Part shown: piece by piece, positions 53,385 to 59,545 of the stretch
Numbering within the stretch: position 1 is the stretch's first letter
Layout: each line of letters opens with the position of its first letter
DNA from: Desulfofustis sp.
GTDB lineage: Bacteria > Desulfobacterota > Desulfobulbia > Desulfobulbales > Desulfocapsaceae
NCBI GenBank assembly: GCA_022340565.1
Contig: JAJDNR010000175.1
Coordinates: 1 to 59,545 of the forward strand
Length of the DNA stretch: 59,545 bases
Direction of reading: 5' to 3'
Made by a program: the position numbers and the translations under genes
The notes under the pieces: generated by a model
The model's database searches: none
The model's input: only the letters and a program-made list of their open reading frames with translations
Told to the model about the DNA's origin: nothing

Positions 53385-55970
53385 ATGAACACTGGAATCA
53401 AACTCAAACTCGGCTTGTTGGTCTTTCTCGTTGTACTGGCGGTCGTCACCGTCGTTCCATCATTTTATGCGAACACGCCGTCCTGGTGGAAAACGTATAT
53501 GGCGCCCGAGGGGTTGCGGCTCGGCCTCGACCTGCAGGGCGGTATGCACCTGGTTCTCAAGGTCAATCTCAAAAAAGCTGAAGAAAATAGCCTGGAACTG
53601 GCGGCCAACGACCTCAAGGACACCCTCGCCGAAGAGTCGATATCCGCCGTTCAGAGCAAGTCTCCTGCCAAGGACACCATCATATTCACGCTGCCCAATG
53701 CAAGCGCCGTCGACAAGGTACAGGAAATCATCAGCGACGGCTTCGATGAGGAACTCGAGGTTCAGGTCGATGCCAAGGAAGGGAGTTTCCCCCGCATCAT
53801 TCTCAAACTGAGCCAGGACAAGATCGACTATATCAAGAACAATGCGGTGGCCCAGTCCCTGGAGATCATCAGGAATCGTATCGACCAGTTCGGTGTCGCC
53901 GAACCGGTGATCATCCGCCAGGGGACCGATGAGATCGTCATTCAGCTGCCGGGCATCAGAGATCCTGAGCGGGCCATGAAACTGCTCGGCGACACTGCTC
54001 AGCTCGAGTTCAAGATGGTCGCCGAGAGCGAGGGGATCAACATCGATCAGCTGATCTCCAGCGTCACCCAATCGGGTCAATGGTCTGGGAAATGGCAGGA
54101 GCTTGACGAAGTCAAGAAACTCAATCAGCTCCTGATCGCGCAACTGCCTGCCAACACCTCGATCTATTTCGAACGCCTGACGGACAAGCAGACCGGCATC
54201 GAGAGCGGGCAACCGATCCTGCTCGAAAACAAGGTGCTGATGACCGGTGACATGGTGAAAAATGCCCAGGTGAGGATCGGCGGCACCTTCAACGAACCCT
54301 ATGTCAGCCTCGACCTCACCTCCCGCGGCGGCAAGCTGTTCGCCAATATAACCGAAAAGAACGTCGGCCGCAGAGTGGCCATCGTGCTCGACGGCGTGGT
54401 AAAATCAGCACCGGTCATCCGCGAGCGGATCCTCGGCGGCTCGGCACAGATTTCCGGGAGCTTCACCCATGAGGAGGCGTCGGACCTCGCCATCGTGCTC
54501 AGGGTCGGTGCACTGCCGGCGCCGGTGGAAGTGATCCAGAACATGACGGTAGGCGCCAGCCTCGGCCAGGACTCGATTAACAAGGGGCTCACCTCCGGAC
54601 TGTTCGGGGCGCTCATGGTGGTGGTCTTCATGGTTATTTACTACCGACTCTCCGGAATCATTGCAAATTTCGCTCTGGCCCTCAACATACTCTTCCTGTT
54701 CTCCGGACTGGCGGTGCTCAACGCCACCCTGACCCTGCCGGGCATAGCCGGTATCGTGCTGTCGATCGGTATGGCGGTCGACGCCAACATCCTGATCTTC
54801 GAGCGTATGCGTGAGGAACAGGCGCTCGGCAAACCGGTTCGAGCGAGCATCGATTCCGGTTTCGGCAAAGCCTTTTGGACCATCGTCGACTCCCAGGTCA
54901 CCACCCTGATCACCGCCCTCGCGCTGTTTCTGTTCGGCACCGGGCCGATCAAGGGATTCGCGGTTACCCTGACGCTCGGCATCATCTTCAACCTGTTCAC
55001 CGCCCTGGTCTGCTCGCGTCTCGCCTTCGACACACTGACCGCTAAAAAGGTGCTTACCAAACTCTCCTTTATGCAGATCACCAAAGGCACCAATATCGAC
55101 TTCATGGGGCTGCGCAAGATTGCCTTCGGCCTGTCGGGAGCCTTGGTGCTGCTCGGCCTGATTGCCGTCCTGCAGATCATGCGCGGCAGCGCCAATCTCG
55201 GCGTCGACTTCTCCGGCGGCTCTCTGCTCCAGTACCAGGCGGCCAGAGAATTCACCATGGCCGAGGTCCGCGACGCCTTCTCGCGCAGCGGCATGGAAGC
55301 GGTTGACCTGCAGGAGGTCGAGAACGAGAACCGGCTGATCATCAAAGTGAAGAAATCAGAGGCCACGGTGGCTAATCTCGCCGATCAGGTGGACCGGATA
55401 TTCGCCGAGACGCTCGCAGACAAGGGCTTCACACTTGAAAGCCAATCGGAAATCGGCTCCAGCGTCAGCGCGGTACTGCGCAACAAGGCGATCCAGGCCA
55501 TCCTGATTTCACTGGCCGGCGTGATCGTCTATCTGGCCTTCCGCTTCGACCTCGGCTTCGGGCTGGCGGCCGCGGTGGCCACCTTCCATGACGTGCTCGT
55601 GGTGCTCGCCGTCTGCTGGCTGCTCAATGTGGAAATCACCCTGCTCATCGTCACCGCCCTGCTGACGCTCGCCGGCTATTCGCTGAACGATACGGTGATC
55701 GTCTTCGACCGCATCAGGGAAAACATGAACAAGCGCGACACCAATGAAATCGAGGCCTCTGTGATCAACACCAGCGTCAACCAGGTACTCAGCCGCACGA
55801 TCATCACCGGACTGACTACGGTCGTGGCTCTGTTCGCCCTCTTCCTGTTCGGCGGCACGGTGATCCATGACTTTTCCTTCGCGCTGATTGTCGGCATCGC
55901 GGTCGGAACCTACTCGTCGATCTTCATCGCCAGCCCGCTGCTGACCTACTGGAAGCGCAAGCAGGCCTGA
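53385..55970 (+). CDS. secDF: fused protein translocase SecD-SecF
   Basis: An 861-residue fusion of SecD and SecF, which uses the proton-motive force to pull translocated proteins through the Sec channel. SecD occupies about 1-560: one N-terminal helix, then LRLGLDLQGGMHLVL, the P1 domain, and membrane helices with D466 in MAVDANILIFER. SecF occupies about 575-861: NLGVDFSGGSLLQYQ and D769 in SLNDTVIVFDRIRENM. Both proton-path aspartates are kept. SecD and SecF are separate proteins in E. coli. yajC, often upstream, is not here; larB precedes instead. Confidence 0.96.
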   Translation: MNTGIKLKLGLLVFLVVLAVVTVVPSFYANTPSWWKTYMAPEGLRLGLDLQGGMHLVLKVNLKKAEENSLELAANDLKDTLAEESISAVQSKSPAKDTIIFTLPNASAVDKVQEIISDGFDEELEVQVDAKEGSFPRIILKLSQDKIDYIKNNAVAQSLEIIRNRIDQFGVAEPVIIRQGTDEIVIQLPGIRDPERAMKLLGDTAQLEFKMVAESEGINIDQLISSVTQSGQWSGKWQELDEVKKLNQLLIAQLPANTSIYFERLTDKQTGIESGQPILLENKVLMTGDMVKNAQVRIGGTFNEPYVSLDLTSRGGKLFANITEKNVGRRVAIVLDGVVKSAPVIRERILGGSAQISGSFTHEEASDLAIVLRVGALPAPVEVIQNMTVGASLGQDSINKGLTSGLFGALMVVVFMVIYYRLSGIIANFALALNILFLFSGLAVLNATLTLPGIAGIVLSIGMAVDANILIFERMREEQALGKPVRASIDSGFGKAFWTIVDSQVTTLITALALFLFGTGPIKGFAVTLTLGIIFNLFTALVCSRLAFDTLTAKKVLTKLSFMQITKGTNIDFMGLRKIAFGLSGALVLLGLIAVLQIMRGSANLGVDFSGGSLLQYQAAREFTMAEVRDAFSRSGMEAVDLQEVENENRLIIKVKKSEATVANLADQVDRIFAETLADKGFTLESQSEIGSSVSAVLRNKAIQAILISLAGVIVYLAFRFDLGFGLAAAVATFHDVLVVLAVCWLLNVEITLLIVTALLTLAGYSLNDTVIVFDRIRENMNKRDTNEIEASVINTSVNQVLSRTIITGLTTVVALFALFLFGGTVIHDFSFALIVGIAVGTYSSIFIASPLLTYWKRKQA

Positions 55971-57457: not shown

Positions 57458-59545
57458 ATGGCAATAGCGACCGAGCAACTTGAAGCGATCAAAAAAGATC
57501 TTACTCACGCCTTTGCAGACGATCCGCATATCAGTGTCGTGCCGACCGAAGGAAATCCGCCGGACACCTACGAGATAACCTATCGGATAGAAGGGCTGCA
57601 GAAAACACCGGAAGGAGAGGTTGAGAAAGCGGATCATCACGTCGTCTCGATCAGCATCCCCTTCGGCTTTCCCCATTTTCCTCCGAGCTGCAAGCCGAAA
57701 AGCCCCATTTTTCACCCGGATTTCGACCCCGCAGCCATATGCATCGGAGACTTCTGGGAAAAAAATCGTTCCATCGTCGATTTGATATCCCATATCCGGG
57801 AAATGATCTCCGGAGCGGTCTACTCCACCGCCAATGCGTTCAACGAAGAAGCAGCGCAATGGTATGCGGAGCATGTTTCAGAACCGCAACAACCGCGCGA
57901 TCAGGCGGAGGCGGAACCTGAAGGAACGCCGCCATCGCCGGCCGATCAGAGTGGAGACGAGATTATCTCGCTGCTCGACGACGATGATGCCGACATCATC
58001 CAGGATGATCTTCTCGCAGACTACGATCCAGCTGACGGCAACGCCCTCGAACCGGCGCTGAGCTTTGTCGACGAGCCGGCAGAAGAGGATGATGCGGGAG
58101 AAGATGCACTCAACGAGATATTCAAGGAATCGGATTTCGATTTTGAAGCTTCGCAGACCGCTGACGATGGCAAGGAGCCGCTGGCACCTCCCGACATCAT
58201 CGGGGGGCTCGACGTCGCAGATGAAGATGAGGAGGTCGATGTCGACTACCTGCAGGAACTGGCTGCGCAGAGACGCTACTTCGGTTTGGACAAGCAACTC
58301 TCCCAGCTCCCGGCATCAGCAAGTTTCGAAGGGCGGGAAGCGCTCGCCGAACAGGCTGCAATCGCCCTGGAACGGGCACAGACCGCCTATACCCGGGGGC
58401 TGGAGTTCGAGCACGGAGGTGAAGTTCGAAAAGCGCTTGAATGCTTCAGACAAATCGAGCGATATACCACCGACTATCCAGGCCTGCAGGACGACATCGG
58501 CCGCATGACCCAGGCAATCGAGCTGCTTGGGGACTGGACCAAACCGGTCATGGAAGAGCGTCGTGAAGACCGCGACGATGAAGACGAGTCAGAATTGGAA
58601 CTGGAACGCGAATCAGAACCGGAGCAGAAACGCCCCCCTGAACCGGAGAAAAAACGCAGGGTCGAACCGGTTCGACCGTCGCCGCCGTCCCAGCCCCGAA
58701 TTTCCGAGGATAGACCGGAATCACGAAGCTTTTTTGAAGACGATACCCCCCGGCAGAAATCCCACCTCGTTCCTCTTGCGATCCTCATCATCATCGCCCT
58801 GGTCGCAGGGGCGGCGGGACTATCCTACTATTTCAGCGCATCAAAATATGACCAGGCCAACCAGCGTTTCAGCGAATGCAGGAACTCGTTGCAGAACAAT
58901 CAGTTCACCGATGCCGAACAGCAATGCGAATCGGCCATCGGACTGGCCAAACAGATCAAGCTTTTCAAGGCTTCGGAACGGGATCTGCTGATTACCGACA
59001 TAAAGAGAACGCTCAAGTCCGAATCACTCACCCAAGGACTTGCCGGGAATCTGCCGCTTGACGGACAGTATTACCCCAGACAGGTAGTTCAAGATATTGA
59101 GAATTTTAGAAAATTTCAGAAACAGGGAGACGATCTGTTGGCAGCTTCAAACTGGCAGCAGGCGCTATCCAATTATGAGCAGGCGCTGGCCATCGCAGAA
59201 AAAGAGGAGGCAATCGATCGGCAACAGGTTATCGAGATTTCTGAAAATATGAGGATGGCCCGATTCAGAATCAGTTACGAATCGGCACTTGCCTATATCG
59301 CCCGCAAGAAATGGGTGCTCGCGACCAGCGATTTCAATCTGGCGCTGGAGCAGCTGAAGACCTTGTCCGTCACCGACAAGGCCGCGATTATCGACGATAT
59401 ATCAAGCCGGCTCGGCGAAATCGCGCAGGCGACGGAGAAGGAAAAGGGCGATTCGGCTTTTCTCGATTCGAAGTGGGAGGAGGCCGCTGAACATTACCGC
59501 AAAGCCCTCGCCGTTGCCATGCAGGGGCCCAACCCCGATGAAAAC
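57458..59545 (+). CDS. membrane-anchored E2 ubiquitin-conjugating-enzyme-like protein with TPR-like region, 3' end missing
   Basis: The open frame runs for 696 codons from ATG 57458 to the window edge without a stop. Residues about 5-140 resemble an E2 (UBC) domain: FPHFPPSCKPKSPIFHPDF corresponds to the PFxPP...PxFHPN segment, C95 in AICIGDFW sits at the active-site cysteine position, and NAFNEEAAQWYAEH matches the E2 end (PLNPEAAxLY). The HPN asparagine is replaced by aspartate (D88). Residues 145-265 are acidic and low in complexity; 270-375 are helical; 380-425 are charged and proline-rich. One membrane helix (437-457, LVPLAILIIIALVAGAAGLSY) follows, then helical TPR-like repeats (about 465-696). 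By charge the N-terminus should be cytoplasmic. Function is unknown; E1, deubiquitinase or ubiquitin-like genes may follow. Confidence 0.8.
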   Translation, partial: MAIATEQLEAIKKDLTHAFADDPHISVVPTEGNPPDTYEITYRIEGLQKTPEGEVEKADHHVVSISIPFGFPHFPPSCKPKSPIFHPDFDPAAICIGDFWEKNRSIVDLISHIREMISGAVYSTANAFNEEAAQWYAEHVSEPQQPRDQAEAEPEGTPPSPADQSGDEIISLLDDDDADIIQDDLLADYDPADGNALEPALSFVDEPAEEDDAGEDALNEIFKESDFDFEASQTADDGKEPLAPPDIIGGLDVADEDEEVDVDYLQELAAQRRYFGLDKQLSQLPASASFEGREALAEQAAIALERAQTAYTRGLEFEHGGEVRKALECFRQIERYTTDYPGLQDDIGRMTQAIELLGDWTKPVMEERREDRDDEDESELELERESEPEQKRPPEPEKKRRVEPVRPSPPSQPRISEDRPESRSFFEDDTPRQKSHLVPLAILIIIALVAGAAGLSYYFSASKYDQANQRFSECRNSLQNNQFTDAEQQCESAIGLAKQIKLFKASERDLLITDIKRTLKSESLTQGLAGNLPLDGQYYPRQVVQDIENFRKFQKQGDDLLAASNWQQALSNYEQALAIAEKEEAIDRQQVIEISENMRMARFRISYESALAYIARKKWVLATSDFNLALEQLKTLSVTDKAAIIDDISSRLGEIAQATEKEKGDSAFLDSKWEEAAEHYRKALAVAMQGPNPDEN

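Follow-up and report, generated by a model that had tools for sequence, protein, structure and literature searches.

An E2-fold domain on a predicted membrane-bound TPR protein of Desulfobulbales, with repeated loss of the catalytic cysteine

The stretch of DNA analyzed here, referred to as the window, is the 59,545-nucleotide contig C225 of a Desulfofustis sp. draft genome (G000; 3.32 Mb in 225 contigs, 94% complete). It ends inside a gene on the forward strand, with the first 696 codons at 57458..59545 and the reading frame still open at the contig end. The final 141 bases of the window are identical to the first bases of contig C97, and joining the two contigs gives an open reading frame of 908 aa with its stop at L003:780. 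The overlap is an assembly break within the gene rather than a biological repeat, and the join is supported by orthologues from the same genus, which are about equal in length and have identical architecture and downstream neighbors. Full-length orthologues keep the frame as well (identities of 24-77% with the top row of their alignment), and therefore the 908-aa frame is a real gene. Its features are as follows.

57458..59545, + strand: the 5′ 696 codons of the 908-aa gene (E2-like domain, acidic linker, helical domain, transmembrane helix, TPRs)
57458..57883, + strand: UBC/E2-fold domain, aa 1-142 (Pfam UQ_con, profile against the PDB, AlphaFold2, Foldseek, VIA)
57713..57721, + strand: HPD motif, aa 86-88, replacing the HPN of classical E2s
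57740..57742, + strand: C95 (TGC), aligned with the E2 catalytic cysteine
57884..58240, + strand: acidic linker, predicted disordered, about aa 143-261 (pLDDT <50 in the orthologue model)
58241..58540, + strand: predicted cytoplasmic helical domain, about aa 262-361 (mapped from the orthologue model)
58541..58762, + strand: second disordered linker, charged and proline-rich, about aa 362-435 (orthologue model)
58763..58834, + strand: single predicted transmembrane helix, about aa 436-459 (hydropathy and charge count)
58904..59545, then contig C97, + strand: predicted TPR array, probably periplasmic, which spans aa 483 to about 838 and of which the window has the first part (Pfam, model)
59405-59545: overlap with L003:1-141, exact over 141 bp
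L003:142-780 (contig C97): the remaining 212 codons and the stop
on contig C97: C-terminal beta domain, aa 856-903

Judged by sequence profiles and a predicted structure, residues 1-142 belong to the E2/UBC fold superfamily. Pfam UQ_con matched the window protein over aa 50-139 below its gathering cut-off (E=1.7e-4; 21.7 bits against 27), and the cut-off was passed by a relative from the same family, L053 (30.9 bits), which itself has no Cys. When the PDB was searched with a profile of 36 relatives, UBE2C was found at 2.5e-8 with its catalytic Cys aligned to C95. An AlphaFold2 model of aa 1-142, made from the 36-sequence alignment, had a pLDDT of 92 and a pTM of 0.86. With this model, the best Foldseek matches were Fts (8qat_D, E 2.9e-6) and UbcH5A, VIA-align placed UBE2S at Z 14.4 (129 residues aligned, 2.5 Å rmsd), and the top matches of both programs were UBC-fold proteins. 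The E2s of giant viruses and African swine fever virus, matched in a viral structure library, are general fold matches. An E2-like domain of about 140 residues on a membrane/TPR reading frame, with C95 at the catalytic position, had been proposed in a preliminary description of this DNA, and each of these elements (gene, fold, cysteine alignment, membrane helix and TPRs) was recovered.

To describe the rest of the protein, we used a full-length model of the orthologue L036 (sequence without the first Met), which was then mapped to the window protein. In the model, the E2 domain is followed by a disordered acidic linker, confident helices at 264-363 and another disordered stretch. Then come a long helix containing the transmembrane segment, TPR helices as far as about 826 and, at 844-891, a C-terminal part of four strands. 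The overall pTM is only 0.45, so the individual domains are trusted and their mutual arrangement is not. The acidic character of the first linker, also described earlier, is pronounced, with 42 D/E against 3 K/R between aa 143 and 262. Hydropathy gives one membrane segment, as previously proposed, and K/R are more common on its N-terminal side by charge count, which should place the E2 domain in the cytoplasm and the TPRs in the periplasm. Pfam TPR_2 matched the window protein above cut-off (2.5e-6), which together with the helical repeats in the model agrees with the TPR-like tail first described. For the beta domain, the search of the full-length model against the PDB returned no informative match, as the list was dominated by TPRs and E2.

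The gene sits among housekeeping genes, with secDF, a YkgJ-like protein and a HAD phosphatase upstream in the window and KpsF, MetK and AhcY downstream on C97 (names assigned by reading the sequences, not by family search). SecD and SecF are apparently fused in a single 861-aa frame at window 53385-55970. No E1, JAB, Ubl or RING gene was found beside the window gene, upstream in the window or downstream on C97; the partner genes that had been expected past the right edge are replaced there by KpsF, MetK and AhcY. The neighbors in the window and at related sites are secDF, YkgJ, HAD, the PATAN gene described below, KpsF, MetK and AhcY, and not the E1, Ubl and/or JAB that adjoin the E2 in Bil, CBASS or types 6a-6e.

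The steadiest neighbor is a divergent gene found directly upstream of the E2 gene in most relatives. Its product combines a cNMP-binding and a DUF4388/PATAN domain with an N-terminal region in which Cys residues are conserved; the cNMP domain is absent in some members of f12 (f1, the family of the window, f3 and f12 are codes for families, not names). The PATAN-E2 pair stays adjacent in two contexts, the secDF...KpsF site and a site near an AAA-FtsH fusion gene. The 822-aa protein at L046:4744-7212 (also in L122, L126 and L127) combines a ClpB-like AAA_2 domain, an FtsH-type AAA domain and an M41 peptidase, and its gene is within a few kb of the PATAN-E2 pair. In the genus of the window the PATAN gene is not adjacent, its best match being G000:C223:10100-11149, and a close PATAN orthologue was not found in some genomes that keep the E2 gene (e.g. 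G015). Cys loss and absence of an adjacent PATAN gene were not significantly correlated: they went mostly in the same direction, but among few informative pairs (sign-test p ≥0.25). The PATAN/DUF4388 domain is shared with the regulators PatA, PixG, PixE and LsiR (PMC7690835), but where these have a receiver domain the neighbor has a cNMP-binding domain and an N-terminus rich in Cys. In cyanobacteria, PATAN proteins link signals to the motors of type IV pili (PMC7690835), which is a lead only here; no pilus gene was seen beside the PATAN neighbor.

Elsewhere in the genomes, ThiF was without a match in G000 (a 94% complete draft) and in G047, a genome of one contig, and the ThiF proteins examined in G009 and G026 were only TcdA-like and MoaD/ThiF-like; in the complete relatives searched, ThiF proteins are of housekeeping type or absent. 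Across the window genome and the complete relatives searched, we found no recognizable dedicated E1, JAB or matching Ubl; a divergent Ubl, or a ThiF-type protein borrowed as E1, may exist. Prok-JAB was above cut-off solely in G030 and G392, both of which have separate Ubl operons, and the G392-type Ubl had no homologue in the other genomes searched. The G030 operon is an E1-Ubl-E2 arrangement at L054:3425-5358 (G030:C56) with an adjoining Prok-JAB match at G030:C56:5545-5808, and the same genome also carries the membrane E2-TPR protein. At L161:1492-2527, G026 encodes a MoaD-like protein with GGG as its last residues, next to a ThiF-like protein that is extended at the N-terminus, and the gene that follows resembles a cofactor-dependent oxidoreductase. 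We also considered an anti-phage defense protein, a candidate rejected because none of the PADLOC defense models matched the window protein.

The hosts of this protein are sulfur-cycle bacteria of the order Desulfobulbales. In a phylum-wide draw of 395 genomes the E2 domain occurred in 12, ten of them within the same order. When the class was searched, 171 of 258 genomes, from 38 of 69 genera, had the domain, and most copies occupy a single syntenic site. Some genomes have a second, shorter copy of about 530 aa that is Cys-less; in one genus this copy is next to ClpS-ClpA, in another it is close to a RecD2-like gene. In the former case (L049:6393-10922, L051 and L053; three genomes) the Cys-less E2-TM-TPR paralogue directly follows ClpS-ClpA. 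A Cys-less E2 together with TPRs and a TM segment was also found in a distant family of the phylum (L147). Homologues without the E2 domain occur as well: L195, from the family of the window and at the secDF-YkgJ-HAD-KpsF site, keeps the TM-TPR-beta part and is missing the E2 domain, and similar E2-less homologues are found in other families (L191-L194). Thus the E2 domain can be lost independently of the rest of the protein.

The nearest outgroup E2 that we found, in G392 (L144/L146), keeps both HPN and Cys and lies within a full Ubl operon; on this basis, the ancestor of the E2 domain was probably a functional E2 encoded in such a bacterial operon. That operon (L146:8932-14442, G392:C35) encodes a YukD-type Ubl, a ThiF E1, a JAB, an FHA protein and a Prok-RING_1/DUF4234 membrane protein; its E2 carries a zinc ribbon in addition to HPN and Cys, and a DnaJ-like protein is next door.

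The fate of C95 differs between families. Among 98 distinct domains in a first set, Cys is present in 79 and absent in 19, with the Cys of L054, one alignment column off, counted among the former. Relatives of the window are overrepresented in this set, and all the counts given here are of sequences, not events. H86, P87, P72 and P76 are invariant in the same set, W100 and N129 are at 99%, and the D of HPD, correctly read as D88 in the preliminary description, is found in 90 of 98. The fold is thus retained even as the catalytic residue is lost. At least five changes at position 95 are required by a 90-row tree from which that column had been left out. Adding 40 sequences chosen by family, a few of which repeat genomes of the first set, leaves Cys in 88 of 138 aligned sequences. 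Among the added sequences, position 95 is Arg in all 25 sampled members of f12, Cys in four, Arg in two and Lys in two members of f3, and Cys in six and Ser in one of f1. The catalytic Cys is accordingly not conserved family-wide. The preliminary description had tied its E2 reading to C95 being constant among close homologues, and this stands in part: the residue is conserved in the genus and in most members of the window's family, with S, R or Y in scattered members, and it gives way to Arg in all sampled f12 sequences and to Arg or Lys in part of f3.

Compared with classical E2s (UQ_con; UBE2C, UBE2S, UbcH5), the family shares the whole fold, the HP motif, the C-terminal N..A motif and, in its Cys-bearing members, the position of the Cys. 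It differs in having HPD rather than HPN, in loss of the Cys in several lineages, in the membrane-TPR fusion, and in that no E1, Ub or E3 was found. With the inactive eukaryotic variants (UEV, RWD, Fts/AKTIP) it has in common an E2 fold kept after replacement of the catalytic Cys and presumably a use as a binding module, whereas the proteins described here are bacterial, bitopic in the membrane and joined to TPRs, and part of the family still has the Cys. E2s of bacterial Ubl operons (types 6a-6e, described by Iyer et al. 2006, PMC1779556; BilABCD, reviewed in PMC11354881; the G392 operon) share the fold and possibly a common origin; in contrast to them, the gene studied here is solitary in a housekeeping neighborhood, has no E1, Ubl or JAB, and is fused to TM and TPR parts. 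Inactive E2/RWD-like domains are already known in bacteria from polyUbl operons (PMC1779556; PMC11354881). Our literature search found no description of a membrane/TPR bacterial E2, which is a weak absence given that subscription papers lay outside the search, nor of an orphan, inactive, membrane-TPR-fused E2 inherited across several families.

Since no Ubl system is adjacent and the catalytic Cys is replaced in whole lineages, we favor a docking or sensing arm over an enzyme. We think it probable that this is a bitopic inner-membrane TPR protein whose cytoplasmic E2 fold serves as a non-catalytic docking or sensing module, like UEV, RWD and Fts. The label of enzyme given at first is unsupported, as the genomes searched have no recognizable dedicated E1, JAB or Ubl and relatives have Arg at the position of C95. 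We speculate that the E2 fold, on its long acidic linker, binds a cytoplasmic partner, for which the best candidate would be the PATAN/cNMP protein or whatever that protein controls, and that the membrane protein could couple this partner to a ligand of the periplasmic TPR/beta part. Several observations suggest such a role: the top Foldseek match is Fts, which we take to be a catalytically inactive E2 variant; the Cys is replaced while the fold motifs are kept; L195 has lost the E2 domain at the same site; the PATAN gene is beside the E2 gene in most loci and in two contexts; and the distant L147 has a similar architecture with a Cys-less E2. Against it, C95 persists in most of the window's family, more than expected for a residue with no role there, although inertia or a residual role may account for this; the PATAN gene is away from the E2 gene in the window's genus and has no close orthologue in some genomes with E2; and its absence beside the E2 gene does not correlate significantly with Cys loss. 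The window's genome, G000, is a 94% complete draft.

Good conservation of C95 in the Cys-bearing family makes an active E2 possible there. C95 would form a thioester with a Ubl-like or MoaD/ThiS-like protein after charging by an unlinked ThiF-type protein and would modify proteins at the membrane, with the Cys-less families as secondary pseudoenzymes. The alignment of C95 with the catalytic Cys, the HPN- and Cys-bearing outgroup E2 in its operon with YukD-type Ubl, E1, JAB and Prok-RING, and the GGG-ending MoaD-like protein that adjoins a ThiF-like protein in G026 are consistent with such activity. However, the searched genomes have no recognizable dedicated E1, Ubl or JAB, the ThiF proteins examined are TcdA-like or of MoaD/ThiS type, HPN has become HPD, and Cys-less orthologues occupy the same syntenic site. 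We consider a working E2 rather unlikely.

It is improbable that the E2 domain instead keeps clients at the membrane and delivers them as substrates to an ATP-dependent protease, be it ClpS-ClpA, FtsH or the AAA-FtsH fusion. The position of the short Cys-less paralogue after ClpS-ClpA in three genomes of one genus, the proximity, at a few kb, of the AAA-FtsH fusion gene to the PATAN-E2 pair in several loci of f3, and an FtsH gene one gene away from the E2-less homologue L191 all point this way, but these are at most three independent instances, the main locus is without a protease gene, and the AAA-FtsH proximity may be the synteny of a single clade. A thiol or redox role for C95, perhaps with C78 and unrelated to Ubl transfer, in which the protein would sense sulfide or redox state, is highly improbable: the hosts are sulfur-cycle anaerobes and C95 is accompanied by C78 in 77 of 78 aligned sequences, a co-occurrence only suggestive of a disulfide or metal site, but C78 is also retained in some sequences that have no C95, so that common inheritance could explain the pairing, and all sampled f12 members retain the gene with Arg at position 95.

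Returning to the docking or sensing module, we tentatively propose that in several families of one order an E2 fold, a membrane TPR protein and a cyclic-nucleotide/PATAN regulator form a trans-envelope signaling adaptor, in which f12 has fixed Arg at position 95. The family itself shows an E2 fold in bacteria outside any Ubl operon, at a housekeeping site in several families of one order and with repeated loss of the Cys, and is a bacterial counterpart of the eukaryotic step from E2 to UEV/RWD. Because Cys and Cys-less states occur in related species, non-catalytic use of the E2 fold is directly testable, and if our proposal is true, the family would provide a natural series from a possibly active E2 to a pure binding domain.
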